From assembly GCA_026874595.1 (NCBI GenBank), contig CM049308.1:94963624-95027623 (forward strand): a stretch of DNA of 64,000 nt. The letters are read 5' to 3'. This stretch comes from Sipunculus nudus. Taxonomy: Eukaryota > Annelida > Sipuncula > Golfingiida > Sipunculidae. Below are positions 12,056 to 61,706 of the stretch, one piece after another; the stretch's first letter is position 1; each line of letters begins with the position of its first letter. Both the position numbers and the translations under genes were made by a program. The notes beneath the pieces are model-generated. The model had not been told where the DNA came from. It searched no databases and was given only the letters and a program-made list of their open reading frames with translations.

Positions 12056-13180
12056 AGGCCTACAGGCCTAATGCGAACCTGTGCTAAGTTTGGGAGTATG
12101 AATGGAGGTTTATTTTTTAAATTTAATATTGATCCTCTTGTGTCCTGCATATCTTCCTTAGTCAATATGATTTCAGCAAAATTAACGTTTCGGACCTGTA
12201 AGTTTCGGACTAGGACATTTTAAAACTAGAATACGGGTAGTCGACAAGCGACTACGTGTATCCGCCGAAACCAGAGAGGGACGGGTGAAGTGAGGCATGG
12301 ATTGAGTGGCAAGGGGAAATAGAAGGATGCGTGTTGCATATAAGCATGGATGTCTACAGCTGAAATGTGTATGTAGGTGGCGCCAAGTGCCACAGAATCC
12401 GGAAAGTTATCAAAGTTGTATACTATTGCAAGATTTTAGGCAGATAAGTCAAACCACTGCCGCGATATGAGTGATTTTATCCCACGGCAAACAAACAGAC
12501 GGACGCTGTGCAGAAATGGTTGCAGATGGCACCACCAGTTTTGCGTATGATAAAGAGCTTTATGAGATCTATACACATGCAAAATTTTAGGAGGATATGT
12601 CAAGCCAGTCCTGAAATATAAGCTTAGATGTCCGCAGCCTGAACGGGAAAGTAGGTGGCGCCACCTGCCATAAAATCAAGAAAGCTATCCAAGATGTATA
12701 TACATGCAAAATTTTAGGCAGATAAGTCAAACCACTGCCGAAATATGAGTGAATTTATCCTACAGCAGACAAACAGACGCTGTGCAGAAATAGTTGCACG
12801 TGGCGCCACCAGTTTTGCGTATGATAAAGAGCTATGTGAGATCTAAACACATGCAAAATGTCAGGAGGATATGTCAAACCAGTCCTGAGATATAAGTTTG
12901 GATGTCTGCAGCCTGAACGGGTGAGTAGGTGGCGCCACCTGCCACAAAATCGAGTTTAAAAGTAAAGTTTAAACCAATCAGCTTAACAGTTTATCATAAA
13001 TCAGTGTATAAGCTAGAAGAGTAAAAAATTACATTTTCGCTTGTAAAAAACATCAATGTAGGTGGGTCCACCAATACCTCAAATTCAGATATGACATATG
13101 TGACAAACATTGGTATAAAATTTGGTGATTATAGCTCTAGCCGTTTCTGAGATTTTAATTTTAGTGTGCCTGCAATCAGG
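12055..13180 (+). repeat. Dispersed repeat, GTGGCGCCAC family (copy B)
   Basis: Opens with 'aaggcctacaggcctaatgcgaacct' and closes with 'gatttTaattttagtgtgcctgcaatcagg', matching copy C at 62535-63125. It carries an internal duplication of about 275 bp: 'gtaggtggcgcca' recurs near 12375, 12650 and 12925. The palindrome GGTGGCGCCACC occurs several times. Non-coding. Confidence 0.7.
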
Positions 13181-15870: not shown

Positions 15871-15957
15871 TCAGCTCTGGACTGTGGAGGACTCTTTCTG
15901 TTTCAGCGACTGCTTCAGCGCTGAGATCCTGCTGTTGATATCAGTCAGGCTCATGTT
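15871..15957 (-). CDS. MBIP: MBIP terminal coding exon
   Basis: Acceptor TTTTTCATACAG|AACATG, then NMSLTDINSRISALKQSLKQ and KESSTVQS followed by TGA at 15873-15871. The heptad pattern with ISALKQSL matches the C-terminal coiled coil of the family. Confidence 0.9.
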   Translation of the reverse strand, partial: NMSLTDINSRISALKQSLKQKESSTVQS

Positions 15958-18900
15958 CTGTATGAAAAATAGAAGACATTAACACATTGTATTAATAAAA
16001 TTATAATTTTTATTGCTAAATAATACCGAAAGTGTATAACAAAACTGATGTTATGTTTATTAAGATATGAAGGACAGTACACAACTGTAAGTTATGTGTA
16101 GCAGGAAAAACAATTCTGTAACTTGTAATAGTTAATCAATATTATGAATACACTGACAGAATGTTGACTATAACAGGACAGAAATCCTGCTGCTCGTAAT
16201 GACTGATCTTGTTATACCTGAGATCATTCATAGGATGAATGATACACTAGAAAATATCCAGATTACCTAGGCCTCTGGATAAATAGAATATGGTAAATTT
16301 GTCCTTCACCTTGAAATAAGAATAACAAAAAACAAGAAGATAAACCTATACCTTATAAATTAAAAAATTAAAAATTTTGTGAAAAAATCCCAAAATGAAC
16401 TGAATGTAGCAAAAACCTAATCAGGTAAGTAGACAAATAAGATAACTAGATCTCTTTATTAGATATGGATATGGATAATGGTTTTGAGATATTGTGTTGC
16501 ATATGAACTATTAAATTGAAGATTTACTTTTTTAACAAATCCAAAATCAACCAAGTGAAGTGTGTGACCAAGACTTAATCAGGGGGAGAGACCTGTAAGA
16601 TACACCTGCAATCTCATGGATAAACGTTACAGTTTTTGAGATATCACTTGTATATGAATTGTTCATAGATGGACAAACTAAAGGTTGGAGCTGATGAATA
16701 TATCTCCTAGGTCAGGGAATATATCAGGTGGTTCAGAAAAAATGTCCCGAACTTTAGGGCCTAATAATTTTATAAATACTGTAAGTCACTGATAGTTGGT
16801 GTGTGGAAAGATGTATTTCATTTGAATTTGTCTTTAAAATTTCATTGCTTCAGGAGTTCAACTTCCTGATTTGTGATAAGAATAAATTTGCATAGTTGAA
16901 TTTGCAATAACCAGTGCTGAGTACTGAGTTTGCATCTGCATGGTGGTCAGTGTCAAGTGTCATCTGAGTAAAGTAAAAGGACATTTAGTTCATGGTGGTC
17001 AGTGTCAAGTGTCATCTGAGTAAAGTAAAAGGACATTTAGTTCATGGTGGTCAGTGTCAAGTGTCATCTGAGTAAAGTAAAAGGACATTTAGTTCATGGT
17101 GGTCAGTGTCAAGTGTCATCTGAGTAAAGTAAAAGGACATTTAGTTCATGGTGGTCAGTGTCAAGTGTCATCTGAGTAAAGTAAAAGGACATTTAGTTCA
17201 TGGTGGTCAGTGTCAAGTGTCATCTGAGTAAAGTAAAAGGACATTTAGTTCATGGTGGTCAGTGTCAAGTGTCATCTGAGTAAAGTAAAAGGACATTTAG
17301 TTCATGGTGGTCAGTGTCAAGTGTCATCTGAGTAAAGTAAAAGGACATTTAGTTCATGGTGGTCAGTGTCAAGTGTCATCTGAGTAAAGTAAAAGGACAT
17401 TTAGTTCATGGTGGTCAGTGTCAAGTGTCATCTGAGTAAAGTAAAAGGACATTTAGTTCATGGTGGTCAGTGTCAAGTGTCATCTGGGTAAAGTAAAAGG
17501 ACATTTAGTTCATGGTGGTCAGTGTCAAGTGTCATCTGAGTAAAGTAAAAGGACATTTAGTTCATGGTGGTCAGTGTCAAGTGTCATCTGGGTAAAGTAA
17601 AAGGACATTTAGTTCATGGTGGTCAGTGTCAAGTGTCATCTGAGTAAAGTAAAAGGACATTTAGTTCATGGTGGTCAGTGTCAAGTGTCATCTGAGTAAA
17701 GTAAAAGGACATTTAGTTCATGGTGGTCAGTGTCAAGTGTCATCTGAGTAAAGTAAAAGGACATTTAGTTCATGGTGGTCAGTGTCAAGTGTCATCTGAG
17801 TAAAGTAAAAGGACATTTAGTTCATGGTGGTCAGTGTCAAGTGTCATCTGAGTAAAGTAAAAGGACATTTAGTTCATGGTGGTCAGTGTCAAGTGTCATC
17901 TGAGTAAAGTAAAAGGACATTTAGTTCATGGTGGTCAGTGTCAAGTGTCATCTGAGTAAAGTAAAAGGACATTTAGTTCATGGTGGTCAGTGTCAAGTGT
18001 CATCTGAGTAAAGTAAAAGGACATTTAGTTCATGGTGGTCAGTGTCAAGTGTCATCTGAGTAAAGTAAAAGGACATTTAGTTCATGGTGGTCAGTGTCAA
18101 GTGTCATCTGAGTAAAGTAAAAGGACATTTAGTTCATGGTGGTCAGTGTCAAGTGTCATCTGAGTAAAGTAAAAGGACATTTAGTTCATGGTGGTCAGTG
18201 TCAAGTGTCATCTGAGTAAAGTAAAAGGACATTTAGTTCATGGTGGTCAGTGTCAAGTGTCATCTGAGTAAAGTAAAAGGACATTTAGTTCATGGTGGTC
18301 AGTGTCAAGTGTCATCTGAGTAAAGTAAAAGGACATTTAGTTCATGGTGGTCAGTGTCAAGTGTCATCTGAGTAAAGTAAAAGGACATTTAGTTCATGGT
18401 GGTCAGTGTCAAGTGTCATCTGAGTAAAGTAAAAGGACATTTAGTTCATGGTGGTCAGTGTCAAGTGTCATCTGAGTAAAGTAAAAGGACATTTAGTTCA
18501 TGGTGGTCAGTGTCAAGTGTCATCTGAGTAAAGTAAAAGGACATTTAGTTCATGGTGGTCAGTGTCAAGTGTCATCTGAGTAAAGTAAAAGGACATTTAG
18601 TTCATGGTGGTCAGTGTCAAGTGTCATCTGAGTAAAGTAAAAGGACATTTAGTTCATGGTGGTCAGTGTCAAGTGTCATCTGAGTAAAGTAAAAGGACAT
18701 TTAGTTCATGGTGGTCAGTGTCAAGTGTCATCTGAGTAAAGTAAAAGGACATTTAGTTCATGGTGGTCAGTGTCAAGTGTCATCTGAGTAAAGTAAAAGG
18801 ACATTTAGTTCATGGTGGTCAGTGTCAAGTGTCATCTGAGTAAAGTAAAAGGACATTTAGTTCATGGTGGTCAGTGTCAAGTGTCATCTGAGTAAAGTAA

Positions 18901-21900
18901 AAGGACATTTAGTTCATGGTGGTCAGTGTCAAGTGTCATCTGAGTAAAGTAAAAGGACATTTAGTTCATGGTGGTCAGTGTCAAGTGTCATCTGAGTAAA
19001 GTAAAAGGACATTTAGTTCATGGTGGTCAGTGTCAAGTGTCATCTGAGTAAAGTAAAAGGACATTTAGTTCATGGTGGTCAGTGTCAAGTGTCATCTGAG
19101 TAAAGTAAAAGGACATTTAGTTCATGGTGGTCAGTGTCAAGTGTCATCTGAGTAAAGTAAAAGGACATTTAGTTCATGGTGGTCAGTGTCAAGTGTCATC
19201 TGAGTAAAGTAAAAGGACATTTAGTTCATGGTGGTCAGTGTCAAGTGTCATCTGAGTAAAGTAAAAGGACATTTAGTTCATGGTGGTCAGTGTCAAGTGT
19301 CATCTGAGTAAAGTAAAAGGACATTTAGTTCATGGTGGTCAGTGTCAAGTGTCATCTGAGTAAAGTAAAAGGACATTTAGTTCATGGTGGTCAGTGTCAA
19401 GTGTCATCTGAGTAAAGTAAAAGGACATTTAGTTCATGGTGGTCAGTGTCAAGTGTCATCTGAGTAAAGTAAAAGGACATTTAGTTCATGGTGGTCAGTG
19501 TCAAGTGTCATCTGAGTAAAGTAAAAGGACATTTAGTTCATGGTGGTCAGTGTCAAGTGTCATCTGAGTAAAGTAAAAGGACATTTAGTTCATGGTGGTC
19601 AGTGTCAAGTGTCATCTGAGTAAAGTAAAAGGACATTTAGTTCATGGTGGTCAGTGTCAAGTGTCATCTGAGTAAAGTAAAAGGACATTTAGTTCATGGT
19701 GGTCAGTGTCAAGTGTCATCTGAGTAAAGTAAAAGGACATTTAGTTCATGGTGGTCAGTGTCAAGTGTCATCTGAGTAAAGTAAAAGGACATTTAGTTCA
19801 TTAATGATGACCTTTTGCTCCAGGGTGTTATGTTCAGTTAAGTTGGATACTTTGCTGTTTACAGAATGGTTTTTAGCTCCATCAGTTAGGAACTGATAAA
19901 GTGATGCTTTGTGGAGAAGGGATGGAGAGGGGCAGGCTTTGCAAGAAAAATTTTCAGGGTAAGGTTGGAATCTACATTCTGTAAATAGGGTGATCAAACT
20001 TGGACTGCAAAAACTGAGGTGAACAAAAATTACACTGGAGAGAACACTCTTTCTCAAGAGGACAATCTGGGTACACAAGTTCCAGAGGAAAATTGCCAGT
20101 AACTTGGGAATACAGATTGACAAAGGATCTTAAAATAAAAAACTGTAATTGACAAATTTAATCACAAATCATACCTGTAAGTCCATCACACCTGTACCCA
20201 ATGACAGTATGGGATGACACTTGATACCGACTACCAGGTGCAACATGCAGTACCCAGCATTGGATATAACAAATTTCACAATGCAAAATTATTCTTCTCA
20301 TAAATCAGGAAACTGAACTGCTGGACCAATGAAATTTTAGAAACATATTCAAAATATACACATCCTTCTACACTCCAACCACCAATTACATACATGTAAT
20401 ATTTATAAAATAATTAACCCCTTAAGTTTGGGACGTTTTTTCTGAATCACCCGATATAGTCTGATTCTTTAGAATTCATGAGAAGGTGGAAATCAAGAAA
20501 ACAATCTATCAGTACATACCGTTATCTCAGAGTCGGTGGTATGAGAGGCTGACTTTTCCTCATGAATTCTGGGTAAATTCTGAAAATATTTTGCGATATA
20601 TGTGTCACATATTTTGACCATAAAATAATGGTCCGATGATAAATGATGATTCAAATATAAGAATTTAAAAGAGGTTATAACATTACCAGAAATGCCAAGT
20701 TATGTCATATGATACAATATGCCCGGACCTTAGAAGAACCCACTGTTAAATAGGCTAAATCCTTGTCTCCATATCTACTGACAGTATTAAAACATTAGCC
20801 CATCACTCATTTTGGTATTTCCTTCTACTTATTTTAATGTACAATAAAATTTCACAGGAAAAAAATGATGTTTTGCCTGATATACTCCATAAAATAGGTT
20901 AATAAATGGTCAAAATCACTCAAAATCACTCAGTTTCACTATTATCTATGCACACATTTATTTCATTTTTTTTTTTGCTTTTGAGGAATAACTGTGGCAG
21001 CACTGCCAAATGAAACCATTATCAACCTATCTTGCACAGGTACATCAGCTGCTATTTCTGCCCCAAAGGTGGGCATGTTTCCAGTCATGTTATTTGTATA
21101 GATGTATCTTTGCTCTGGTGGGCATGTTTCCAGCCATGTTATTAGTATGATGTATCTTTGCACTGGTGGGCATGTTTCCAGTCATGTTCATATGTATTGA
21201 TATATTTTTGCTCTGGTGGGCATGATTCCAGCCATGTTATTTGTTTGGATGTATCTTTGCTCTTGTGGCCATGTTTCCAGTCATGTTCATTTGTCTGGAT
21301 GTATCTTTGCTCTGGTAGGCATGTTTCCAGTCATGTTATTTGTATAGATGTATCTTTGCTCTGGTGGGCATGTTTCCAGCCATGTTATTAGTATGGATGT
21401 ATCTTTGCTCTGGTGGGCATGTTTCCAGTCATGTTCATATGTATTGATATATCTTTGCTCTGGTGGGCATGATTCCAGCCATGTTATTTGTTTGGATGTA
21501 TCTTTGCTCTTGTGGCCATGTTTCCAGTCAAGTTCATTTGTCTGGATGTATCTTTGCTCTGGTGGGCATGTTTCCAGTCATGTTCATATGTATTGATATA
21601 TCTTTGCTCTGGTGGGCAAGATTCCAGTCATGTTCATTTGTATGGACGTATCTTTGCCCTGGTGGGCATGTTTCCAGTCATGTTCATTTGTATGGATGTA
21701 TCTTTGCTCTGGTAGGCATGTTTCCAGTCATGTTCATTTGTTTGGATGTATTTTTGCTCTGGTGGGCAAGATACCAGTCATGTTCATTTGTATGGATGTA
21801 TCTTTGCTCTGGTAGGCATGTTTCCAGTCATGTTCATTTGTATGGATGTATCTTCTCTCTGGTAGGCATGTTTCCAGTCATGTTCATTTGTATGGATGTA

Positions 21901-24900
21901 TGTTTGCCCTGGCGGGCAAGATACCAGTCATGTTCATTTGTATGGATGTATCTTTGCCCTTGTGGGCATGTTTCCAGTCATGTCAATTTGGGTTGATGTA
22001 TCTTTGCTCTGGAGGGCATGTTTCCAGTCATGTTCACTTGTAAGGATGTCTCTTTGCTCTGGTGGGCATGTTTCCAGTCATGTTCATTTGTATACATGTC
22101 TCTTTGCTATGGTGGGCATGTTTCCAGTCATGTTCATTTGTATGGAGGTATTTTTGCCATGAGGATATTCTCACTTGACCTAAGATTATTGCTTCAAAAA
22201 CATATGCCTCTGACTGAAATGTCAGTAAATCCTGGGCCCTTCCTGAAAGCTGCATGGTTGGTTCAGTCAACATAAGTGGTTCACTGATATACCTTTCAAA
22301 AATTCTAAATGCAAATTAAGTGTACATACAGCAATCCCAGGCATTTTGGTCTGTTTTGGGCAAAACAATTTGAATCCAGCTAAGGAGGTGGTTTAAAACT
22401 GTTTCCAATGCAAATCAAATTATCCACTCAGTTAAAGTGCAGCGTTAATGCTAAATCCACACTAAAAATGGTTTAGACCTAATCTGAAGCTGCAACTGGG
22501 TCACAGCACAAATGTGAAAACTTGTGGAATTAGGTTGTTTTAGTGTTTCACATAAAATATACATCTCAGGCATTGGTGCTAGATGTCCAAGTGAAAGCAC
22601 AATACAGTCTGAAACTATTAAATTTAGTATACCTCATTTCTAAAAATGTTTAAAACCGTTCTGTGTTTTTACCTCAGTTCAAAACCCAGTACTGGTGATC
22701 TGTTTAAAATAAATAACCACAATGTTTATTAAGGTTGCATGAGGGTGATTGAGTTGACACTTCTTCTCTGTTTACATTTCTGTTTCTTAAATGATTTCAG
22801 TGGAGGGCTTCTGTGAAAGTAGCTCCAGCATTCATGTGCGATAAGTACTTTTTTACCTGCCTGAGTATAGATATTCTGGCCCTGATACTTACATGCTTGT
22901 TAAAGTATTCTGGTGACAGACTTTCAAGGTACAAAATTCTCTCCTCCAGGTCTTTTAATCTGCTGTACACATTAGCAGGGACTGGCTTCACTGGAATATA
23001 CAGAGATCGACTAATCAACATCACTAACACTGAAGTAACCAGTCAACATCACTGACACAAAGTGACCAACCAACATCACTGACACAAAGTGAGTAATCAA
23101 CATCACTGACACTGAAGTAACCAGTCAACATCACTGATACAGAGTAACCAATCAACATCACTGACACAAAGTGAGTAATCAACATCACTGATACAAAGTA
23201 ACCAATCAATGTCACTTACACAAAGTAACCAGTCAACATCACTGACACAAAGTAACCAACCAACATCACTGACACAAAGTGAGTAATCAACATCACTGAT
23301 AGAAAGTAACCAATAAACGTCACTTACACAAAGTAACCAGTCAACATCACTGACACAAAGTAACCAATCAACATAACTGTCACAAAGTTACCAATGAATA
23401 TCATAGTTACAAAGTAACCAATCAACATCACTGACACAAAGTAAATAATCCACATTACTGTTACCAAGCAACCAATCTGCATCACAGTTACAAAGTAACC
23501 AAAAAGCTTTTATTAAGCTTATATAAACTTATAAGCAGCACATATAATATAAGAGTTAAACTATTTATTAAAATTTAATAACAAAATTGTGCCAATATAA
23601 TTTTTATTAAAAAAAAACAAGGGACCCATGGGTCACATAGCTCAGCTGAATTTTGGAAAATATTAGTAACTGCAAAATATTTTGATTTCTTTTGGTTTTT
23701 CATGCATATTTTCATTAGAAAAGCTATCAGAAAATGGCCCAGCTAAAATGAAACTCTGTAAATTATAGAATAATGGACATGAGCTAAACCATTTAGTGAT
23801 GCACCAAGGGAACAAATAGGCCTACGGTAAGTGTTATATAATAGTAACATTTCATAAACAAATAATGTGTGAAGGTAATTAAGTTTTCAAAAGTTAAATA
23901 TATGGCCATATAAGTTAAAAATTAATCCCACAAAGTTTGACCAATATTCCTAATTTTAATACTAAGTTAACAGTGTTATTCACACCTAGGCCCCGCCAAC
24001 TTTAAGAGATATGAATGAAATGCTACAAAGTATTTATGTTTTCTTAAATCTTGTAAGTTAGTACTTACATTAGATCCTAATATTTTATCACATTTGAATA
24101 TTAGGATTAAATTCCTGAAATTGTTTTCTTTAAAAAAATCAAAATTGTCAAAGTCTCATCAAAAAGAATTTATTTAACATTAAAATTATAAGATTCATCT
24201 TGTTTATTAGTCCTGTGTATTGAAGGGGTGGGTGGGGGAGGGGGTCTTTGTTGTTACTGCTCGTTGCTGAAAAAAATGTTAATTTTAAGATTTATCTACT
24301 TCAAAGTACAGGTCTGTCAACAGAATGGGGTCGGGGGGGAGGGGGGGGGGGGGAGAAAAAGGCTCCCTGTGGTATGGTATTAACTGCAGACAGCCTGATC
24401 AAGCTCAACTCAGCGGAGAGAGGGCTTGCCCTAGTGATGGAATTGCATAACATTATGCCAACAGCCTGGGGAGCATAGAGAGCTGCACTGAAGTGGACTG
24501 CTTGACAATGTAAGGGAATACAACAAGAGCCTCCAAAAAAAATTCAATAACTAGCCTAATTTTGCAGTGGCCAAAGTTGGGCAAAATTTAAGGTACCAAT
24601 TTTTTATTTTTGCTAATAATTTAAAGATTAAAAAAGATTTTGATCTAATTTTGGGTATACAATTTAATTTTGATTAATTAAAGTTAAATTACTGGAAAAA
24701 AGTCCTTAGCTTTAACATGTTTTGTGTTAAGTGATCAAATATCTTTCCTGATTTTTTATAAAATGCATTATGTTTGAGCCCATGACTTTTTTTAAATTAT
24801 ATAATACAGACCTTTTCTGGCATGTATATAGGAACTATAAAGAGGAATATTTATGCTCAATATGAGGAAAAACAGATGAGTGGTTTTGATATTAGGCAGT

Positions 24901-27900: not shown

Positions 27901-30900
27901 ATTGGAGTGGTAACAGCTTTACAATTAAAGAAATACAGTTCAAACAATAACAATTTTCGCAATTCAATTGGTGGTTGGGGAGGGGGGGGGGGGGTTGGAG
28001 TTGACATAAAAATAAATGTACACTTGTGACAGCAGGGGTGCTCAACTAGTGTTGCATCACTAATAAGGTCACCAAGGCAGGGCTGTAGTGACCAGAAGTG
28101 GATGGCCTGGAGGTTGATAATGCAAATAAAAACATTAGAGCTTTTAAAAAAAAAAACTTCAATAACTAGCCGAACTTTTTAGCTTTTATTTTCAAATTTC
28201 AAAACTTAACAGATTAAATCCTAATGTATATATGTTGTGAAAATTAAATCAACAGTGCTTACAGGGAAAAAATGTGATGTGGCAAAAGTTGGACAAAATT
28301 TAAGGTATTGATTTTTTATTTATGCTAATAACTTATAAATTTACAAAATTCAGATCTAATTTTTGGTATACGATTGAATCTTAATTAAACTAAGTTTATA
28401 CTTGGAAAACAAGTCTCTAGCTTAAAAAATGTTCATGTTAAGTGAGCAAATATTTTTCCTGACTTTTTACAAGGTCCAATATGTTCAAACCCACACCTTA
28501 TAGAAATTACACTTAACAGTCTTATTCTCTGGCATGTATATAGGAAATATATAGGAGAATACTCCTGGTAAATATTATGAAAAACAGAAAAGTGGTTTTG
28601 ATATTAGGCAGTTCTAAAGTGTGATAATAGGTTTTTTAATGGAAAATTGAGGTTTTTCCTAATTTTCTTGAAAGTACATAGTGGCAGTGACCCAGTTTTG
28701 GGGTTGGTAGGAGATCTTTGGGACATCTAACAGTGAGCCAAATTTTGGATTAGAAGGTCTAATGGTTTCAAAACAGGACAGTATAACTGACGGATGGATA
28801 GATGGACAGACGATGGACAATGGACCATAACTATAGCTCAGCTGATAATATGATTACCTTTAATCCCCAGGTGAGCCTCAGCAGCAGCTAGTCTGGCCTG
28901 AACAGCCTCAGATGAGTGAGCAGCCTCCCTGGCTGACAAGGCCCTGCCGCCTGATGACTGGTCCACACTGTGACGGGTCTGTGGGCCATAAACATTGTGC
29001 ACTCTTCTTACTGTAACACATGAACAGACAGGAGTTTTGTCATTGCATTAAGGTCTGACAAGTAACAGCTGTACTTATCACTGTGGAAGAAATGTGTGAG
29101 GTAAAATATGAATGAAAAATAAAAATATGATAAGACATGATTTAGAGGTGTGTTACAGATTCATCCTATACACCAGATACTGATATCAGCATATACCATT
29201 CTTTAAACTATGGTTTAGGATTTATCCAGAGATCTTTATTTCTGTAAATTACAAGCTGAACATAGAATGAAGGTCAATGCTACAATCATATTGCTGTATT
29301 GATTATACCTTTAAACATAAACTAAATCAGTCAATTTTACCAATAAGCACACAGGTATTAAATTTTGTATTAAACTATTTAAAACATTCCAACTGTAATT
29401 GACCAAGAAGAGCAAGGAAATTCTTATTTGTGACCTGTCTTAATCTAACGCCAAGGTTAACAAGGTGTTATTTATGACTTGCCTGGGCAGTGATCACCTT
29501 GAGCTGTACGAGATATGAACACAGCATTGGTCCTGGCACAACCATCTACAAACAAAAACCATCTACAAACATGAATACAGCATCAGTCCTTGCACACCCA
29601 TCTACAAACATGAACTCAGCAGTAGACCTGGCACAACTATCTACAAACATGAACAAAATGTTAGTCCTGGCACAACCATCTACAAACATGATCACAGCAT
29701 CAGTCCTTGCATAACCATCTCCAAAATGAAAACAGCATCAGTCCTTGCACACCCATCTACAAACATGAATACAGCATCAGTCCTTGCACAACCATCTACA
29801 AACATGAATACAGCATCAGTCCTGGCACAAATATCTACAAACATGAATACTGAATCAGTCCTTGCACAACCATCTACAAACATGATTACAGCTTCAGTCC
29901 TTGCACAACCATCTCCAAAATGAAAACAGCATCAGTCCTTGCACACCCATCTACAAACAAGAATACAGTATCAGTCCTTGCACAACCATCTACAAACATG
30001 AATACAGCATCAGTCCTGGCACAAATATCTACAAACATGAATACGGCATCAGTCCTTGCACAACCATCTACAAACATGATTACAGCTTCAGTCCTTGCAC
30101 ACCCATCTACAAACATGAATACAGCATCAGTCCTTGCGCAACCATCTACAAACATGATTACAGCATCAGTCCTTGCACACCCATCTACAAACATGAATAC
30201 AGCATCAGTCCTTGCACACCCATCTACAAACATGATTACAGCATCAGTCCTTGCACACCCATCTACAAACATGAATACAGCATCAGTCCTGGCACAAATA
30301 TCTACAAACATGAATACAGCATCAGTCCTTGCACATCCATCTACAAACATGATCACAGCATCAGTCCTTGCACACCCATCTACAAACATGAATACAGCAT
30401 TAGTCCTTGCACAACCATCTACAAACATGAATACAGCATTAGTCCTTGCACAACCATCTACAAACATGAATACAGCATCAGTCCTTGCACAACCATCTAC
30501 AAACATGAATACAGCATCAGTCCTTGCACAACCATCTACAAACATAAATACAACATCAGTCCTTGCACAACCATCTACAAACATGAATACAGCATCAGTC
30601 CTGGCACAAATATCTACAAACATGAATACAGCATCAGTCCTTGCACACCCATTTACAAACATGAATACAGCAGTTGTCCTTGCACAACCATCTACAAACA
30701 TGAATACAGCATCAGTCCTTGCACAACCATCTCCAAAATGAAAACAGCATCAGTCCTTGCACACCCATCTACAAACATGAATACAGCATCAGTCCTTGCA
30801 CAACCATCTACAAACATGAATACAGCATCAGTCCTGGCACAAATATCTACAAACATGAATACGGCATCAGTCCTTGCAAAACCATCTACAAAAATGATTA

Positions 30901-33900
30901 CAGCTTCAGTCCTTGCACACCCATCTACAAACATGAATACAGCATCAGTCCTTGCACAACCATCTACAAACATGATTACAGCATCAGTCCTTGCACACCC
31001 ATCTACAAACATGAATACAGCGTCAGTCCTTGCACACCCATCTACAAACATGAATACAGCATCAGTCCTTGCACACAAATCTACAAACATGTATACAGCA
31101 TCAGTCCTTGCACACCCAACTTCAAACATGAATACAGCATCAGTCCTTGCACAACCATCTACAAACATGATCACAGCATCAGTCCTTGCACAGCCATCTA
31201 CAAACATGAATACAGCATCAGTCCTTGCACAGCCATCTACAAACATGAATACAGCATTAGTCCTTGCACAACCATCTACAAACATGAATACAGCATCAGT
31301 CTTTGCACATCCATCTACAAACATGACCACAGCATTAGTCCTTGCACAACCATCTACAAACATGAATACAGCATTAGTCCTTGCACAACCATCTACAAAC
31401 ATGAATACAGCATTAGTCCTTGCACAACCATCTACAAACATGAATACAGCATCAGTCCTTGCACAACCATCTACAAACATAAATACAACATCAGTCCTTG
31501 CACAACCATCTACAAACATGAATACAGCATCAGTCCTGGCACAAATATCTACAAACATGAATACAGCATCAGTCCTTGCACACCCATTTACAAACATGAA
31601 TACAGCAATTGTCCTTGCACAACCATCTACAAACATGAATACAGCATCAGTTCTTGTACACCCATCTACAAACATGACCACAGCATTAGTCCTTGCACAA
31701 CCATCTACAAACATGAATACAGCATTAGTCCTTGCACAACCATCTACAAACATGAATACAGCATTAGTCCTTGCACAACCATCTACAAACAAGAATACAG
31801 CATTTGTCCTTGTAAAATCAAATACAGCAGTCTATAAGCATGAAGCAACATGATATTATATAACACAGCATTAAAGGCAATAATACATTTAATCAGTTCC
31901 ATGAATATATCTGTCAGCTCTGGTTGACAATGTCTTCCAATGGTTGTCCCCTTATCAGTTTCTGTTATGAGACTATGGGGATGAATTAGACTAGTTTGTT
32001 TGAGAGTAAGTAGTTTGTATGTGTAGTCTACATTTGTACTCTGTATACACCCTGCTGCTTTTGTTCCCTGGGCTATTTCTATTCTTCAGTATGTGTTATG
32101 ACATATTGCCAAGAGGGATAATAAACATGTATCAATTTTTATTTTCAACTTGAGTTTTCCCTGTGTTGTTGAAACAATGTCAACCTTTAATTGGAATTAA
32201 TATTTTGTGTATCAGTCTGTCATGAAACTTTTCTTATTAGATACCAAATGTGTTTGCTCAATGTTTGAGGCCTTAACAACATAGTCACGTACAAAATACA
32301 ACCAGGAAAATTTTCTAAATTATTATCAATAATATTCATTGTTTAAATTGATCCTTTTTGCTAAACTTGTGAAAAGTAAAATGATTATAAGGGAAAATGG
32401 TTTACAAAAAACTTTAGAGATAAAGTACCAATAAACATGGAGTATGGACATATTTACTTCAAAGAAACACACTGTATGTATATGGAGGAGTATGGATACA
32501 GACAACTAACTTATGGATAATCAGCTTTAGTTTGCAGCACCCTCTCATGATAATTAGTTTGTGTTAGGATCCCCGTTTCTGGTCACAAGGCATTGTGCTC
32601 ATTTAAAGTCCATCCAGATCATTAGACATGACCACCCTGACCTTCGTACATGATGTTGCTGGCTCTAGGTTTCTCTGGGGACATAATGTAACTTAAGTAA
32701 GTGTAAGTGTTGTGTTCCATGAATACTTCATGACGAGGTACATGGTATTTGGCACTATCTCACTCAGGTCAGCATCTGAAGAGAATGACCACTTACAAAT
32801 TTTATTCCTACTTTTATTTTTACTTGTAAAAGAGACAGTCCATGTAAAACCAAACATTTTATTAAAAGATTTCTAATAGAAAGTGTCAATTTTGCCAAGT
32901 GATATCTACAGTGGGATCTAAGAGTGAACAGTATGTTCATGGTCATGAGTTTACTGTAAGATCCCTGTACCTGTTTCTTCATTTGGATCCATCAGTCAAC
33001 AAATTTAATTTCTTATGGTAATTAGTTTACTATAAGATCCCTTTACCTGTTTCTTCACTCGGATCCATCAGTCAACAAATTTAATTTTAGATTTGTCACG
33101 CATAATCAAAACATAAGTGTAAGTGAGTCTGAAATGATGGTCGCTCTGTCTAAACTGAAATCCAGAAAGTCCTATGACCAAGATGGTTTAGGAGCAGAAC
33201 AGTACATTCATGCGAAGGACGCACCCATTATGTTCACTGTTCACTTCACTCCTCATACATGGTTATATGCCTGAACATATGATGAGTAGTATAATAGTGC
33301 CAGTACTTAAGAATAAAACACAGAGTATAACTGATAAAGCCAATTACAGGCCCATAGCACTGTCCACTATAATGTCTAAACTCTTTGAGTTTGTGATTTA
33401 TGAGAAAATTAAACACTTTGTTAATGTAACTGATCATCAGTTTGGATACAAAACGGGTCATGGCACAGAGCTTTGTGTAGGGTTGCTAAAAGAGATTCTT
33501 CGATTTTACCAGAAGATGGGATCACGTATGTTTGTGTGTTTTCTCGATGCATCATCGGCTTTTGACAGAGTTTGTCACACAACTTTATTCTACAAGCTTT
33601 TAAGGAACGGTGTCCCTTTATACCTTGTCAGAATCGTGTATTACTGGTATATGCACCAAAGAATCTCTGTAAGATGGAACCCGATCAGGTCGGACTATTT
33701 CACAGCCACTAATGGTGTTCGACAAGGAGGGGTGTTGTCTCCACTCATGTTCAATATTACATGAACGATTTGAGCTCTAAATTAAACACACACACAATTG
33801 GTTGTTGTATTGACAAAAATATCATCAATCATCTTATGTACGCTGATGATATAGTGGTTTTTGCTCCGTCGGTCAAAGGTCTGCAAAAACTAATAAATCT

Positions 33901-36729
33901 TGCCGATGACTATGGCATTTGGCATAATATCAAATTTAATATGACAAAATCTGTGTATATGCACATAATGGGAAAAGATAAAACTTGGGCTACATCTGAC
34001 CCATGTCTCAAAATGGGACAAATGCTTTTATCCCCTGTCCAGCAGTACAAATATTTAGGTTGCATTATCAACAGCAAACTGCAAGATGATGATGACATAT
34101 TGCGACAAATGCGCCTACTGTACATACGGGCTAATATGTTAAAACAAAAATTCAAACTTTGCTCGGAAACAGTTAAAATATTATTATTTAAAATGTTTTG
34201 TTACACTTTGTATTGTGCCAGTCTCAGGAGTAAATATAGAGTCCAGCACAGAAAAGGTGAAAGTGGCGTACAATAATGCTTTTAGGATATTTCTTGGCTT
34301 TCCAAAACATTGCAGCATCAGCAAAGAATTAATAAGTCGTAACATTATCACTTTTGACGCACTAATGCGCAAACAGATCTTTTCACTGAAAATGAGAATA
34401 ACAGAATCTGATAACCTGTATGTCAGAACTTTGTATGAATCTGATTTATATTTACAGTCAGACTTGTTTAATGTTCATAACCAGAAGATGTTTGTTATTA
34501 GATTATAAGTAATAATGCAGCTAGTCTAAATGCTGTGTTATTTGCTTTCTACTGTTTTTTTTTCTTTCTATTCTCATTTCCTTTATTGTTTGTATATGGA
34601 CCATGAGTCTGTTATAAAACTTTATTATTATTATTAATTTCAAATGGTAATTAGTTTACTGTAATGTCCCTGTACCTGTTTCTTCACTCGGTTGCATCAG
34701 TCAAAAAATTTAATTTCTAATGGTAATTAGTTTACTGTAAGATCCCTGTACCTGTTTATTCACTGGGATCCATTGGTCAACAAATTTAATTTCTAATGCA
34801 TGGTAATTAGTTTACTGTATGATCCCAGTACCTGTTTCCACATTGGGATCCATCAGTCCACAGTATTCCCTCCTGTTGTTTTGGTCCACTTCATTTTGTT
34901 TTCTTTCAATGAAAGCAGCAATCCTTCTGTCTATCTACAAAAATAAGTAAACCGGGTGAAGATTTGTAATTTAATCAATCAATAAGTTATCAGAATTTTT
35001 TTCAGCCATTCAGTCTGTCAATCATTCTCCACATTAAGTTCCCACCACAGCTCTCCACTGACTCCTCCAGCAACGCTGTGGTCCTGCCCTTCCTGCTGGG
35101 ATTCAGCAGAATAAAGAATCTGAGTTTAAAACCTCAGCATTTGAGAATGCAAGGTCTGCTTTTGTAATCTCATACATTGTGCTGTTTTATATTCAAATGA
35201 CTGAGTAAAATCAAATGTTTTGAGGTATAATTAAAGATTAATTAACAAACTGACTAGAAAAGGGGGAGGTCTGTAGAAGCAGATGATAATAAAACATTTG
35301 TGGTATAGTATTTCCAGTACTACAAGAAAACAAATTACCTTACTGGATTTTGATGAAATTTTGTGGACACTTATAGTGGAACAATCATGATATCAAGATC
35401 ATTGTAATTCACTTGTATTGGGGAAATTTTAAGTGTTCATTTCTGAAAAGGGTAAAACTTGCAATGGTATGTAATGTGCATCGATCATCTAATTTAGGAA
35501 CTGCTTTTGTTCTGGCAGGCAGTGCCGACCGACCAGTGATGAAAGCATGGAGCTGATGAACTGTGACACATTTCTCTCTTGGCTAGGATACATATATATT
35601 TCCTGCTTTTAAAACACACATCCATGTTTGATCAGGATTCTGGTAACATTCTTGATCTGGTGATCTAGGTGTGTTGGCTAGGATAGTTTCTGAGTGTGTA
35701 CAAGTTTTTAAATGCATAATACTGATATGACTGGAAAACAAAGCATGACGTGACTTGATCACAAGGAGCAGTTCTCTATATACCTTACATTTCATTTTAA
35801 TGGGTTAGGAAAATGATGGACACACATGGTTTGAGACTTGATTTGAGGGCTAGAGGTATTAAAATATGGTATACAAACTCTTTACAGAATCCTTCAATCC
35901 AAGACAACATTCCTGAGTAAGCTGTTATCAGTAGGTGATGTACACTTTACACACTGCCTGATGTACACCATGTGTTTCAAAAAGTGCAGTTTGTTTTAAC
36001 TTGGTTTCCTGGGTTTGTCCAAAAGAAGTTTACATAAAATGTTAGGCCAATCAGATTATATATGACACAAAGGCAAGGTTAGCACTACATGCTCTGTAAT
36101 TGGTTGAACTGAAGTAAATACAGCTGTGCCCACTTTATCTCATGAGGTATTGTATTTCATTATGGAGCGTGGGGAACTGAAGACCTGTATGAGGATCATT
36201 GTCTAGCAAAAAGACTGCATATTCCTCTAGAAGGTATACTCTACAGGGAGTGGCACATCATCTCACCTTGAACGCTGGGAATAAACATCCTGTTTTTAAA
36301 TCAGTTTTGTGCTCTACCTGATATCCATGTGCACTCATTAAGCCCTTAAAGATCTGGATTCCTGCAAATGGAGCGAACATTGAGTCATAGCCATTATTCT
36401 GATACTGTGGGATATCTCTGGCAGGATTCCCACAAATTCTGAGACCTTTTATAATGCTTTGCTTCTCTTCATGGGAAACAGACAGCAAACAGAGTGAAAA
36501 TTCAAAATTCATTTTTTAAAAGCTCTACAAAGGCCTTAAAAATATACATATAGTATTTTCTAGCATTTGCACATGAGAACCCTGTCAAAAACACAGGAAA
36601 AATTCTGAAATTTGCTATGACAGCATTCTACTCTGAGCCACTCACCTCATTCTTACTGGCAGTGATTTGTACGAGGGATGGATTTATAACGGGAGTTGTA
36701 TTCTCTGTTCTTTCACTGATGTCAGCCAT
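15871..36729 (-). CDS. MBIP: MBIP, MAP3K12-binding inhibitory protein (ATAC complex subunit), 7 coding exons
   Basis: Joined exons on the minus strand: 36729-36646, 34934-34832, 29545-29498, 29010-28858, 22990-22893, 20579-20520, 15957-15871. The total is 633 nt, a 210-residue protein plus stop. Every intron is GT-AG and every phase matches. Diagnostic segments in order: EIDRRIAAFIERKQ, GCARTNAVF, NVYGPQTR, RILYLESLSPEYF, ISALKQSLKQK. These line up in order with vertebrate MBIP as I remember it. In the family, MBIP binds and inhibits the kinase MAP3K12/DLK in the JNK pathway and is a subunit of the nuclear ATAC histone acetyltransferase. The C-terminal half is leucine-rich coiled coil. Vertebrate MBIP is near 340 residues; here about 150 N-terminal residues are missing, and an in-frame stop precedes the start codon. 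Introns carry five tandem arrays. Confidence 0.9.
15958..16938. other. MBIP last intron, unique part
   Basis: AT-rich intronic sequence between the terminal exon and the 52-bp array; nothing else seen. Confidence 0.5.
16939..19800. repeat. Minisatellite, 52-bp unit, ~55 near-identical copies
   Basis: Unit starts 'catggtggtcagtgtcaagt' and ends 'aaaaggacatttagtt'. About 55 exact 52-bp periods fill 2.86 kb. The only variation I see is 'ctgggtaaag' instead of 'ctgagtaaag' in two units (near 17485 and 17590). It lies in the last MBIP intron. Stops in every frame make it non-coding. Such uniformity means very recent expansion or active homogenisation. Confidence 0.97.
19801..20519. other. MBIP last intron, unique part
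   Basis: A 120-codon minus-strand frame (19761-20123) shows no domain and overlaps the array edge; treated as chance. Nothing else is recognised. Confidence 0.4.
20520..20579 (-). CDS. MBIP: MBIP coding exon 6 (60-nt symmetric exon)
   Basis: 60 nt, phase 0 on both sides, no stop. Acceptor AAATATTTTCAG|AATTTA, donor ATAACG|GTATGT. Encodes NLPRIHEEKSASHTTDSEIT, a polar linker between SPEYF and the last coiled coil, where vertebrate MBIP has a linker of similar length. Symmetric phase means it could be skipped without frame loss. A 12-bp inverted repeat (AGAATTCATGAG) links its start to the intron beyond its donor. Confidence 0.72.
21070..22160. repeat. Minisatellite, ~50-bp unit, about 22 copies, with higher-order pattern
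   Basis: Unit 'tgtttccagtcatgttcatt' + 'tgtatggatgtatctttgctctggtgggca'. A block of five units (21076-21320) recurs almost exactly at 21325-21570, with the same variants in order ('gttattagtatg', 'catatgtattgata', 'cttgtggcc'). It lies in the intron between MBIP exons 5 and 6. Long open frames are by-products of the period. Confidence 0.93.
22161..22892. other. MBIP intron, no feature seen
   Basis: Unique AT-rich intronic sequence between the 50-bp array and exon 5. Confidence 0.5.
22893..22990 (-). CDS. MBIP: MBIP coding exon 5
   Basis: 98 nt. Acceptor GTATATTCCAG|TGAAG, donor AACAAGCAT|GTAAGT (phase 0). Encodes KPVPANVYSRLKDLEERILY and LESLSPEYFNKH, the most distinctive MBIP signature (R-I-L-x-L-E-x-x-S-P-E-Y-F). 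A 27-bp tandem array starts about 30 bp upstream of the acceptor. Confidence 0.92.
23020..23500. repeat. Minisatellite, 27-bp unit, about 17 copies, abutting an MBIP acceptor
   Basis: Unit 'accagtcaacatcactgac' + 'acaaagta'. On the transcribed (minus) strand it reads TTACTTTGTGTCAGTGATG + TTGATT. The final unit lies about 30 bp before the exon-5 acceptor, in the region where the branch point is expected. Units decay away from the exon. Confidence 0.9.
23625..25130 (+). repeat. AAGGGACCC-family dispersed repeat, full-length-looking copy (1.5 kb)
   Basis: Starts acaagggacccatgggtcac + 'atagctcagctga' and ends 'ggaccacgactatagctcag' + 'atgagctaaaaa'. The start holds the perfect palindrome GACCCATGGGTC. 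The two ends carry AGCTCAG and CTGAGCT in inverted orientation. A long G tract lies at 24330-24355. No coding region; inserted in an MBIP intron. Confidence 0.72.
25588..27830 (+). repeat. AAGGGACCC-family dispersed repeat (2.2 kb copy)
   Basis: Starts acaagggacccatgggtcac + 'ggcgctcagctg' and ends 'ggaccacgactatagctcag' + 'atgacttacatacagctgagctaaaaa'. Its 26130-27830 part is highly similar to 37630-39400, including the block around the G tract ('ttatgcaccagctggggg') and the 'gacggacggacgacgg' run near the 3' end. A minus-strand frame at 27552-27791 has a homologue at 39119-39451 only because the repeats are homologous. Confidence 0.75.
27835..28850 (+). repeat. AAGGGACCC-family dispersed repeat, 3' part
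   Basis: Begins inside the family ('catggcttcttctggattac', G tract at 27975-27992) and ends 'ggaccataactatagctcag' + 'ctgataatatg', only a few bases before the donor of MBIP exon 4. Confidence 0.65.
28858..29010 (-). CDS. MBIP: MBIP coding exon 4
   Basis: 153 nt. Acceptor GTGTTACAG|TAAG, donor ATTAAAG|GTAATC (phase 1). Begins RRVHNVYGPQTRHS, matching the conserved VNTYGPQTR block, then a Ser/Ala-rich linker and QARLAAAEAHLGIK, a start of coiled coil. The donor lies a few bases from the end of a dispersed repeat (27835-28850). Confidence 0.9.
29011..29497. other. Short MBIP intron, no feature seen
   Basis: Unique intronic sequence between coding exons 3 and 4 (487 bp). Confidence 0.6.
29498..29545 (-). 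CDS. MBIP: MBIP coding exon 3 (micro-exon, source of the 39-bp array)
   Basis: 48 nt. Acceptor TTTTTGTTTGTAG|ATGG, donor CTCAAG|GTGATC; phase 1 to phase 1. With the flanking bases it encodes DGCARTNAVFISRTAQV. GCARTNAVF corresponds to the conserved CARTDAIF block of vertebrate MBIP. The acceptor and the first ~27 exon bases are the unit of the tandem array directly upstream (29546-31830). Confidence 0.88.
29546..31830 (-). repeat. 39-bp tandem array of an MBIP splice acceptor plus exon start, ~58 copies
   Basis: On the minus strand each unit reads TGTTTGTAGATGGTTGTGC followed by AAGGACTGATGCTGTATTCA, i.e. the 3' splice site of MBIP exon 3 and its first ~27 bases, encoding GCARTDAVF with FMFVD between units. 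39 is a multiple of 3, so the frame is open through long stretches on both strands. Three units with a 1-bp deletion and altered acceptor (near 29718, 29911, 30729) mark an 818-bp higher-order duplication (21 units). Entering from any unit near the real exon, the frame ends in TAG, whose AG is the true exon-3 acceptor. Confidence 0.93.
31831..32935. other. MBIP intron, no feature seen
   Basis: AT-rich unique sequence between the 39-bp and 76-bp arrays. Confidence 0.5.
32938..33087 (-). repeat. 76-bp array of an MBIP splice donor, two units left of a LINE
   Basis: Two units of the donor-bearing repeat. On the minus strand each has CTGATGGATCC, then GAAGAAACAG|GTACAGGG or GTGAAGAAACAG|GTAAAGGG, homologous to the end of MBIP exon 2 (CTGATGGATCC..GAAACAG|GTACTGGG). 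The array continues beyond the inserted LINE at 34635. Confidence 0.88.
33088..34634 (+). pseudogene. 5'-truncated non-LTR retrotransposon, reverse transcriptase remnant
   Basis: The plus strand encodes most of a reverse transcriptase in at least four frames: KLKSRKSYDQDGLGAEQ, then ANYRPIALSTIMSKLFE, FLDASSAFDRV, GVRQGGVLSPLMFNI, then after a 1-base loss near 33760 NHLMYADDIVVFAP and QYKYLGCIINSKLQDDDDI, and after another shift near 34240 the thumb and C-terminal part to 34508. The YADD catalytic motif is intact, but the gene is dead. The endonuclease is missing (5' truncation). It ends in a (TTA)n tail. 'taattt' borders both ends and the element splits a 76-bp repeat unit, so the insertion is clear. 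The clade (CR1/L2-like?) is not resolved. Confidence 0.9.
34635..34831 (-). repeat. 76-bp array of an MBIP splice donor, units right of the LINE
   Basis: Two more units ('tggtaattagtttactgtaa' + 'g/tgtccctgtacctgtttctt' ...) directly next to MBIP exon 2, whose own 3' edge is the fifth unit. The AAACAG|GTAC donor is retained in each. Confidence 0.88.
34832..34934 (-). CDS. MBIP: MBIP coding exon 2
   Basis: Acceptor CTTATTTTTGTAG|ATAGAC; donor GAAACAG|GTACTG (phase 1). Encodes IDRRIAAFIERKQNEVDQNN and 14 further residues to VET. This is the best-conserved part of the family. The 3' edge of this exon with its donor is duplicated four more times in the following intron (34640-34800 and 32940-33087). 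Confidence 0.9.
34935..36645. other. MBIP first coding intron
   Basis: No further exon fits here: open frames at 35583-35795 and 36258-36512 (minus) lack frame-preserving splice pairs. A GC-richer patch at 35040-35110 is unexplained. Confidence 0.4.
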
Positions 36730-59583: not shown

Positions 59584-61706
59584 TACTTAATCACATGTCA
59601 AATATATTTCAATGAGGTATACGGTGTTAGAAATTAAGGTATTATGTTTCCAGTACCTGTTAAGTCTCAACCAGGTTTAGATATAATATTTCATAGTTAA
59701 CTCATACATGGAAGCAAATTAAGTCTATATTTAAAAAAAATTTTTTTTGCTATATTTCATTTGCAATATATAAATAATGTTCTCTGAAAAGTGGGGGGGG
59801 GGATTGACCATTCCCCCGCCCCCCCCCCCCCCCTTGTCACAAATTTCGGAGGGGGGATATATACCCCAATCCCCCCACCCCCCTATATTGAGGCCCCCCT
59901 TCCTTGGACTTTATTGACTGTCTTTCCTGTTTCCTTTCCTGTTTCAGTATGTTACAGAAGGCCTATCAGTTTTTTTAACATGTGACAACCTCCTGGTTGT
60001 ACTCTTGTTTGTACAGCTCGGGGTGCGTGGACGCGCGGAATGGAGACATCTACCCTCTGTGGCAGACGATGCCGGGACCAGACTCGTGTACTCAGTGCGT
60101 CTGTCTGCCGTGGGGGACCAGCTGCTCTGACGTCACGTGTCCTCTCCCGGACTGCGCCGACTTCGTCAAGTTGCCGGGAGACTGCTGTTTTTCCTGCCCA
60201 AATGGCAAGTCTAGTTAAGAATCGCTCTTATTGGTAAAGAATGGACGTTATTTTAGGATAAGGATGCTATTACGTAAAACAATTGACATATTGGCTTCCT
60301 TTATTATATACCTATAGGTCTACCTTCGGGATGGAGGGTTAGCCCGTCGCTGCTGCCATTTAATTTGCGCCGCCGCCAGCCACGTTAAGATCAAGCCGAG
60401 CCGAGCCAAGTTTATCAGGAGGCGCTGCTGATATTTCATTAAGCCGAAGTTAGCCGATTTTGTGCAGTTTAGTTCGGCTTGAGTAAAATTCATGCAAAAA
60501 GATAAATCTTTTAAATTAAAAAATGATCGAAACTTATACAGACTAATTCAAATTTAGTTTTGTTGAATTTGATACAAACAGACAAAGTTGAAGTTCCCCA
60601 CATTATAATACATAGTACGTCAAGCCTGACACCCCTAAAAATAAAGGGGTCACACGTAATATAGATAATTTGTTTGAATATAATGGGTACTTTGTAACAT
60701 CAAATGAATGGCTTTCAGATCAGTTAAAGCTAGCCGATATTTTGTAAGCCGAGTCGAACCACGCAACCCGGGTTACTACTAAAGTCGGCCGTCTTTTTGT
60801 CTAATGCAAGCCACATTTGTGTGGACCACACGGCTCCGGGCTCTAACCTGATATCTAAATCTGCTATCACTGCCGCATTCATTACGCTTCGGCTTTTTTA
60901 AATCAGTCCGGCTATTAAAGTCAAACTAATTTCAAATGGCCGAAGCGTAGTGAATGTCACAGCCGTAGACGTAACGCAAACATAGCGTTCTGTGTACACG
61001 ATGTCACAATGAGGGCACGTCTGAGCAACATGTAGACAACCCCCGCTTTTCGTTCATCAATCTATCTCCGCTACGTTCAGAAAATGTTGAACATGTTCTG
61101 ACTTTTGCGTCTGCGTTATGACCCATGAAAATGCAGCGTAATAGACCTTTCCCTCCTCGATTGCGCCATCTGTCGGCGATATATCACTCAGAGGGTTCGA
61201 GTCTGTTATAGTGTTATATTGACCAAAAAAGATATTTTGTTATATTTCGAATACTAAATGTTGTGATTCAAACACCTGTCTAACGCCCCGTCTCATATTA
61301 CATTTCGTTTTACAAAGCTCACAATGCTGACAAATAGGACCCGAACACAGCAGACAACCATTAAGCGCAGTTAATGCGCATGCTCGAAGAAAAGGTCAAT
61401 AAGGTGAACATATAACGTTACGTATGCGTTTCCATTGAAACGCAGGCGTTTCACATACGTTTTGTAACGTGGGCTGTTAAAAATACGTGAGCAAGTTAAA
61501 AAATAAACTGTTTGTTTTATATGTGATAATGCTAATTATTTTTATTGACACTAGGCCACACGACATGCCAGGCAGACGAGGTGGAGATTCAACCAAACTC
61601 CATGCATATGCGATGGAAAGAAGACGGCTGCCTAGAAACATGCACGTGTGGTTACCCTGTGAGCAGCCGAACTGGGAGGTGCAAGTCTCAATGCTTCAGT
61701 AAATGA
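58835..61706 (+). CDS. Secreted VWC-domain protein, 3 exons, 145 residues
   Basis: Joined exons 58835-58932, 60017-60204 and 61555-61706. Phases match at both junctions. Residues 1-22 form a signal peptide (MLRHKACTVITVLLSICLLV...). Residues 36-93 are a von Willebrand factor type C domain with all ten cysteines (36, 57, 60, 62, 69, 74, 79, 89, 90, 93), including CTQCVC and CCFSC. Residues 100-142 form a second module with six cysteines (C-x20-C-x3-C-x-C-x10-C-x3-C), like the N-terminal half of a VWC. The protein ends 3 residues later. The ATG has a good context (CACCATG) and AATAAA follows 60 bp after the stop. VWC proteins often bind BMP-type ligands or matrix; the role here is unknown. No transmembrane segment is present after the signal peptide. 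Confidence 0.82.
59395..59900. repeat. Simple repeats and G/C tracts in the first VWC intron
   Basis: G tract at 59403-59420, (CA)n at 59443-59462 and 59504-59518, (TA)n at 59519-59579, G run at 59791-59800, C run at 59818-59834 and a further C-rich stretch to 59882. The G/C parts look like remains of MITEs related to the 6825 type. Confidence 0.8.
60017..60204 (+). CDS. VWC gene exon 2 (VWC domain)
   Basis: Acceptor TTTGTACAG|CTCGGGG completes the split Arg codon. The whole VWC domain lies in this exon. It ends CCAAATG|GCAAGT: a GC donor (GC-AG intron) with otherwise perfect consensus. Clearly more GC-rich than the neighbouring introns. Confidence 0.85.
60514..60828 (+). repeat. Direct repeat, copy 1 (~312 bp) in the second VWC intron
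   Basis: Nearly identical to 63143-63455 (about a dozen or fewer differences). Contains 'taaaaataaaggggtcacac' and 'aaagtcggccgtctttttgt'. Non-coding; probably two insertions of one short element. Confidence 0.88.
61555..61706 (+). CDS. VWC gene exon 3 (second Cys-rich module and stop)
   Basis: Acceptor TTGACACTAG|GCCACA; encodes HTTCQADEVEIQPN and on to CKSQCFSK, then TGA at 61704-61706. Confidence 0.78.

Follow-up and report, generated by a model that had tools for sequence, protein, structure and literature searches.

Among described systems, the closest to the locus reported here are the mirages of lancelets, minisatellite-like duplications of exon-intron boundaries which, as far as the accounts of them go, are reported or believed to leave splicing undisturbed (PMC3087553, PMC3902484). 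They have been described in globin genes (BflGb6/BflGb9), in Adh (Adh3), in troponin C and in PGBD5, the last of these added by PMC3902484, which also cites the Adh and troponin C cases. In these descriptions, the units at the borders of a mirage tend to escape homogenisation. Here we describe two arrays of this kind in a 64,000-nucleotide stretch of DNA of the sipunculan Sipunculus nudus (hereafter the window; C3:94963624-95027623 of a 1.43-Gb assembly with 153 contigs). The window holds, on its minus strand, an MBIP-like gene whose intron 2 carries copied splice boundaries at both ends, and the structure is an unusually large member of the kind already described in lancelets.

Splice signals are also found in other types of tandem repeat. 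The variable number tandem repeat (VNTR) in intron 18 of human ABCA7 has a 25-bp unit that starts with a donor dinucleotide; in the data given for it, one unit is retained in 2 +/- 1%, and skipping of the next exon goes up with length, 3.2-fold between the extreme length combinations and 4.1-fold between the alleles of one person (PMC5954066). The MBIP arrays share with this VNTR an intronic position beside an exon and a splice dinucleotide within the unit, but the ABCA7 repeat, as described, concerns the donor side only, and there the link between length and splicing was measured. In UBC and other arrays of dual-specific splice sites, the repeat units are coding, the sequence AGGT acts as donor and acceptor, and isoforms vary in their number of monomers (PMC10809524). 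MBIP likewise has a tandem repeat with a splice site per unit, but its decoys are of the type AG/AT (the stroke indicates the splice junction), and none of them preserves the protein. Finally, intron gain by tandem duplication including the splice sites was described for potato RdRp (PMC4974935) and in Drosophila (PMC2891723). The MBIP arrays, too, are tandem duplications involving splice sites, whereas those cases, as presented, are single duplications making new introns and not long arrays at an existing boundary.

Anatomy of the two arrays of intron 2

The acceptor array lies at 29557-31826, at the 3' end of intron 2. Wrap-around alignment resolves it, in the direction of transcription (31826-29557), into 58 complete units. 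Of these, 55 measure 39 bp and the other three 38 bp, and each is composed of an intron end resembling GTTTGTAG, the last 8 bases of the intron, followed by the opening 31 bases of coding exon 3. Tandem Repeats Finder (TRF) places the array at 29557-31812, with a period of 39, 57.9 copies and 90% matches. The initial annotation of the window had counted about 58 tandem copies, which is borne out; it had also recognised a 3' splice site joined to the exon-3 start, correctly, except that the exonic part is 31 bases long (with 8 intronic ones) rather than about 27. The unit core, TTTGTAGATGGTTGTGC, has 25 exact matches across the assembly, every one of them in the acceptor array, the true exon included. 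Most units (52 of the 58) end in TTTGTAG; the others end in TTTGGAG (three), TTTGAAG (one) and TTTGTAA (two).

The true start of exon 3, authentic by reading frame and homology, is the exon-side, terminal copy of the array. It had been annotated as the last, diverged unit; the terminal position is right, but what directly precedes the acceptor is a 17-bp truncated unit (29546-29562) and not a full one. This remnant contains a run of five Ts and, on splicing in silico, sends the nearest decoys into a TAG. Over the 31 exonic positions, the first unit differs from the consensus at 7 and the last three at 7, 7 and 1, with a mean of 1.8 for the 54 inner units. Blocks of units have been duplicated within the array, units 7-11 recurring at 31-35 with one change and units 25-29 at 46-50 with a few changes.

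The 5' end of intron 2 carries a second array, with a 76-bp unit made of the last 31 bases of exon 2, the donor CAG/GTACTG and intron sequence. Copies 1-3 lie at 34634-34862, copy 1 comprising the end of exon 2 itself and the true donor, and copies 4-5 at 32939-33090, past an element on the plus strand that resembles a long interspersed nuclear element (LINE) and was recognised by eye, without a profile, from its reverse transcriptase-like open frames and ATT-rich tail (33091-34637, limits approximate). A search of the assembly with the donor-array pattern, allowing up to 3 mismatches, returned five matches, which are these five copies. The exon-2 donor at 34832, already proposed in the initial annotation and confirmed by the gene model, is thus itself repeated, the authentic one being the exon-side copy. 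Splicing from each of copies 2-5 leads to a stop after residue 68.

Set beside the lancelet mirages, as far as the published descriptions of those extend, the MBIP arrays agree with them in several respects: the tandem copies span an exon-intron boundary (8 intron and 31 exon bases on the acceptor side, 31 exon bases on the donor side), donor and acceptor sides can both be affected, the authentic boundary, identified here by reading frame and homology, is the terminal copy, and many units, not all, carry the AG or GT signal. The agreement is partial for border divergence: no unit is more diverged than the first and two of the last three, but the very last, with its single difference, departs from the lancelet pattern. 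The differences are of size and arrangement. Where the BflGb6 haplotypes described have 3 and 6 copies, MBIP has 58 acceptors, and a kinase gene of the same genome, presented below, at least 44 donors; in addition, intron 2 of MBIP is affected at both ends and has a LINE-like insert inside one of its arrays, unlike the lancelet introns on record in those reports.

The MBIP gene

The gene model comprises seven coding exons and 215 codons in a single open frame without internal stops, with GT/AG splice sites throughout except for one possible GC donor, that of exon 3. The first coding exon, which starts at the ATG, lies at 36646-36729, exon 2 at 34832-34934, exon 3 at 29483-29545, exon 4 at 28858-29010, exon 5 at 22893-22990, exon 6 at 20520-20579 and exon 7, which includes the stop, at 15871-15957. 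The predicted protein is 43% identical over 195 amino acids to a stretch of human MBIP. The matched parts include the conserved EIDRRI..FIERKQ, CARTDAIF, YGPQTR, SPEYF and ISALKQ, and the CARTNAVF segment falls within the alignment. These matches support the identity given in the initial annotation; MBIP itself is a subunit of the ATAC acetyltransferase complex. Searches of Pfam and PDB with the predicted protein gave no matches, and the N-terminal part of vertebrate MBIP was not recognised by eye in upstream minus-strand frames of at least 30 residues, up to 50 kb away, no dedicated search having been made.

A protein search of the whole assembly, with E up to 10, gave seven matches, exactly the seven exons of the window, and hence no second MBIP copy. 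The locus is an intact MBIP-like gene and the only one found in the assembly; the annotation had named an MBIP homologue elsewhere, with this locus a pseudogene, as a finding that would contradict it, and none appeared. That the locus might be a broken copy, or the array a product of assembly, is very improbable: the pseudogene version is rejected, given the one intact frame over seven exons and the lack of any other MBIP match in 1.43 Gb at that E value, and the artefact version has to contend with units that differ by many point changes in an internal block pattern instead of being uniform copies. Arrays are, however, difficult to assemble, and the number of copies may be inexact.

At the end of exon 3 there are two donors, both in frame and separated by 15 nt: AAG/GTGATC, giving an exon of 48 nt (29498-29545), and CAG/GCAAGT, giving one of 63 nt (29483-29545). 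The start and the GT donor at 29498 agree with the exon as initially drawn, at 29498-29545; we prefer the 63-nt form on account of its near-gapless alignment to human MBIP, a comparison that covered this form alone and in which one single-residue gap precedes CARTDA and none falls between CARTDA and YGPQTR. Either or both of the GT (29498) and GC (29483) donors may be in use. In both forms, exon 3 is flanked by two phase-1 introns, and skipping it leaves the frame open to the normal stop, with the computed loss, for the 63-nt form, of 21 residues including the conserved CARTDA motif.

Consequences of decoy use for the message

The outcome of decoy use was computed by joining exon 2 in silico to each of the 122 AGs between 31880 and the true acceptor and reading on through exons 3-7. 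One AG, the true acceptor, yields the full-length protein; from none of the other 121 is there read-through to the MBIP stop. This bears out the earlier proposal that use of a decoy truncates the protein. There are 53 TTTGTAG acceptors in total, 52 of which are decoys upstream of exon 3. That nearby decoys end in a TAG holding the AG of the real acceptor is the case for the four nearest TTTGTAG decoys (29562, 29601, 29640 and 29679), but those further upstream end at other stops, which, among the decoys listed, lie just past a 38-bp unit.

The same computation bears on whether the array could be coding, an upstream acceptor being used and the protein carrying DGCARTDAVFMFV repeats. One frame of the array does read FVDGCARTDAVFM and is free of stops over long stretches. 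Nevertheless, that frame is lost at each of the three 38-bp units and at the 17-bp spacer, and none of the 121 other AGs reaches the MBIP stop. Under this gene model, the sequence contradicts the coding reading, which was rejected as barely credible.

Origin of the arrays and choice of the true sites

The kinship of unit and exon supports the derivation of the array from the exon-3 acceptor of MBIP, as the annotation had it. Exon 3 is taken as the source, and copying would have run from exon to array, because the CARTDA reading is common to human MBIP and the unit core is unique to this array. Most probably, the array is a mirage, a minisatellite that has expanded passively, with selection preserving its exon-side copy and exon definition leading to the choice of that copy. 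A short duplication of 8 intron and 31 exon bases across the boundary between intron 2 and exon 3 would have started the minisatellite, and unequal exchange within intron 2 would have enlarged it. The exon-side copy would have stayed under selection since the full-length protein comes from that copy alone. The spliceosome would pick the true acceptor by exon definition, this acceptor defining the shortest exon 3 because it is nearest to the exon-3 donor, and a T-run longer than that of nearly all decoys may help. Most decoys would be passed over, and the occasional use of one would give early stops and messages removed by nonsense-mediated decay. The donor array would work in parallel, with the true exon-2 donor as the copy on the exon side, closest to the exon-2 acceptor.

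Several observations weigh against this account. Of its 31 positions compared with the array consensus, the true exon 3 departs at 4, and the units closest to it, with 3 differences (units 3-5, 12-14, 16, 37 and 38), lie in the distal and middle parts of the array, those adjoining it being less alike; with the nearest relatives of the exon so placed, position within the array no longer records its history. On an approximate matrix of consensus values, the true acceptor scores 1.3 bits, compared to a decoy mean of 1.34, with 38 of the 52 decoys equal or higher, and the true exon-2 donor, at 0.9, is the weakest of the five (the others score 1.1-3.6). The T-run of five, reached by one of 57 decoy units, is the scored distinction of the true acceptor. 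Furthermore, if the spliceosome simply scanned from a more distant upstream branch point, it would favour the decoy that lies 17 nt before the true acceptor. Lastly, the many-copy mirages found in print come from lancelets; no many-copy boundary mirage outside that group was found in the open-access literature searched, whose scope is narrower than all print. Since neither true site stands out by its matrix score, what decides between the sites must be their position or elements outside the scoring. Position is the likely criterion, the true acceptor being nearest to the exon-3 donor.

A functional reading would make the array a splicing rheostat, its length setting the amount of exon-3 skipping or decoy use and thereby tuning the amount or the form of MBIP. 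In its favour, skipping would remove 21 residues with the CARTDA motif and preserve the frame, 52 TTTGTAG decoys lie upstream of exon 3, and the length of the ABCA7 VNTR is associated with more skipping of the next exon; yet, in the same data, retention of the ABCA7 unit did not vary with length (PMC5954066). Lancelet mirages, for their part, are reported without disturbed splicing, as far as they are described. We regard this reading as unlikely and favour a passive origin. Quite unlikely as well is an extended form in which both arrays of intron 2 jointly act as a length-variable rheostat, more copies holding more U2AF and U1 in the intron and so causing more exon-3 skipping. If it were true, an in-frame MBIP without the CARTDA segment would be made, and length mutations would quickly change a subunit of the ATAC complex within populations. 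Against the suggestion that the array is damaging stand the intact frame over seven exons and the undisturbed splicing reported, in the parts of those accounts that bear on it, for comparable lancelet structures (PMC3087553, PMC3902484).

Minisatellites and boundary arrays elsewhere in the gene and the genome

The long minisatellites of the window are concentrated, nearly all of them, in the region of the MBIP gene and its 3' flank (12000-36800). Arrays of 2.8 copies or more, with a unit length of 20-300 bp, occupy 33% of this region; in the parts of the window to its two sides, they occupy 0.6% and 0.2%. Three splice sites of MBIP are touched by arrays, the exon-2 donor, the exon-3 acceptor and the exon-5 acceptor. 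At the last of these, a 27-bp array found by TRF (23010-23502, about 18 copies) stops some 20 bp short of the acceptor; most of its units end in AG and none contains exon sequence, so it was counted as adjacent only and not as a boundary mirage. Intron 6 contains 55 copies of a 52-bp unit (16939-19801; TRF and alignment), each with the acceptor-like CTTTTACTTTACTCAG, which reads CCCAG in two; this strong acceptor-like sequence lies on the MBIP sense strand. The array has 2 substitutions in 2863 bp, and no other loci were found for it in the assembly. The next exon is about 1 kb away and no source exon was traced, and we treat this array as an ordinary minisatellite. Against its near uniformity, the mean of 1.8 differences in 31 positions among the inner acceptor units makes the earlier description of the acceptor array as recently expanded only partly apt. 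A 50-bp array in intron 5 has no clear splice signal by eye.

Boundary arrays were also sought among the kinase genes of the assembly. The sample, small and from one protein family, comprised 70 of 138 kinase-domain matches (the 30 best-scoring loci and 40 short exons), and each exon with 60 bases per side was compared with its own locus. Self-matches were found in six of the 70 loci (L051, L056, L069, L070, L082 and L085), with coding overlap in three. L056 (also L091; G000:C4:93858700-93862946) is a clear second mirage: the donor of a kinase exon ending in ...SEPYSTK is present at least 44 times, the true one included, the copies being mostly spaced by 65 bp, with the true donor on the exon side and an array that extends beyond the segment analysed. 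L082 contains a single decayed copy of an acceptor together with the beginning of its exon (83% over 30 bases); at L085, a degenerate array lies on the acceptor side, and the match takes in 3 coding bases. The hits in L051 and L070 were judged by eye to be simple or AT-rich repeats, and the one in L069 is an intronic 120-bp doublet; these were discarded. Repeated matches to one segment of a muscle-type myosin gene (L093, G000:C2:44849200-44851600) were also rejected as a mirage, three of them, within the segment analysed, being whole exon-like copies, each followed by GT. These three copies are likely alternative exons. A muscle myosin exon of the assembly matches PDB chains from squid and scallop marginally better than mammalian chains (193 and 191 bits compared to 190), a faint pointer to a mollusc or an allied animal on which no claim is based. 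No molluscan hemocyanin beta domain turned up, although the control gave no signal anywhere, so that this does not amount to evidence of absence.

Such cases raise the question of whether minisatellites arise preferentially at splice sites in this genome, by a mechanism acting through splice signals, R-loops or splicing. The three arrays that touch MBIP splice sites, the donor of L056 in at least 44 copies and the weaker acceptor-side duplications of L082 and L085 would all fit this idea. However, with a third of the MBIP region made of arrays (0.33 x 12), about four of the 12 splice sites of the model are expected to be touched by chance, compared to the three observed. Moreover, TRF arrays overlap one of the 70 kinase coding matches and 10 of 140 equal-length flank segments of the same loci (Fisher p 0.10), which is no enrichment and, if anything, a deficit, so that exon borders do not look favoured by arrays. 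Preferential birth at splice sites is accordingly an improbable explanation, and mirages appear to be a tolerated fringe of a genome rich in minisatellites.

Two further features of the window were noted. Downstream of MBIP, a 274-bp repeat containing GTGGCGCCAC motifs occupies 12373-12951 in about two copies. At 59979-60218, a cysteine-rich open frame on the plus strand resembles, by eye, a von Willebrand C-type domain exon.

Implications

Lancelet genomes are smaller than 1.43 Gb, the size of the present assembly. The MBIP and kinase arrays suggest that long boundary mirages also occur, and more than once, in a genome much larger than those of lancelets. The 58 acceptors and at least 44 donors, near-alike in sequence, are natural experiments in splice-site choice; because their sequence strength varies little and their position a lot, they test the parts played by proximity and exon definition. 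Boundary arrays might also supply the material from which new introns, or length-dependent splicing of the ABCA7 type, could arise. For Sipunculus nudus itself, the expression of MBIP requires that dozens of look-alike splice sites be ignored.

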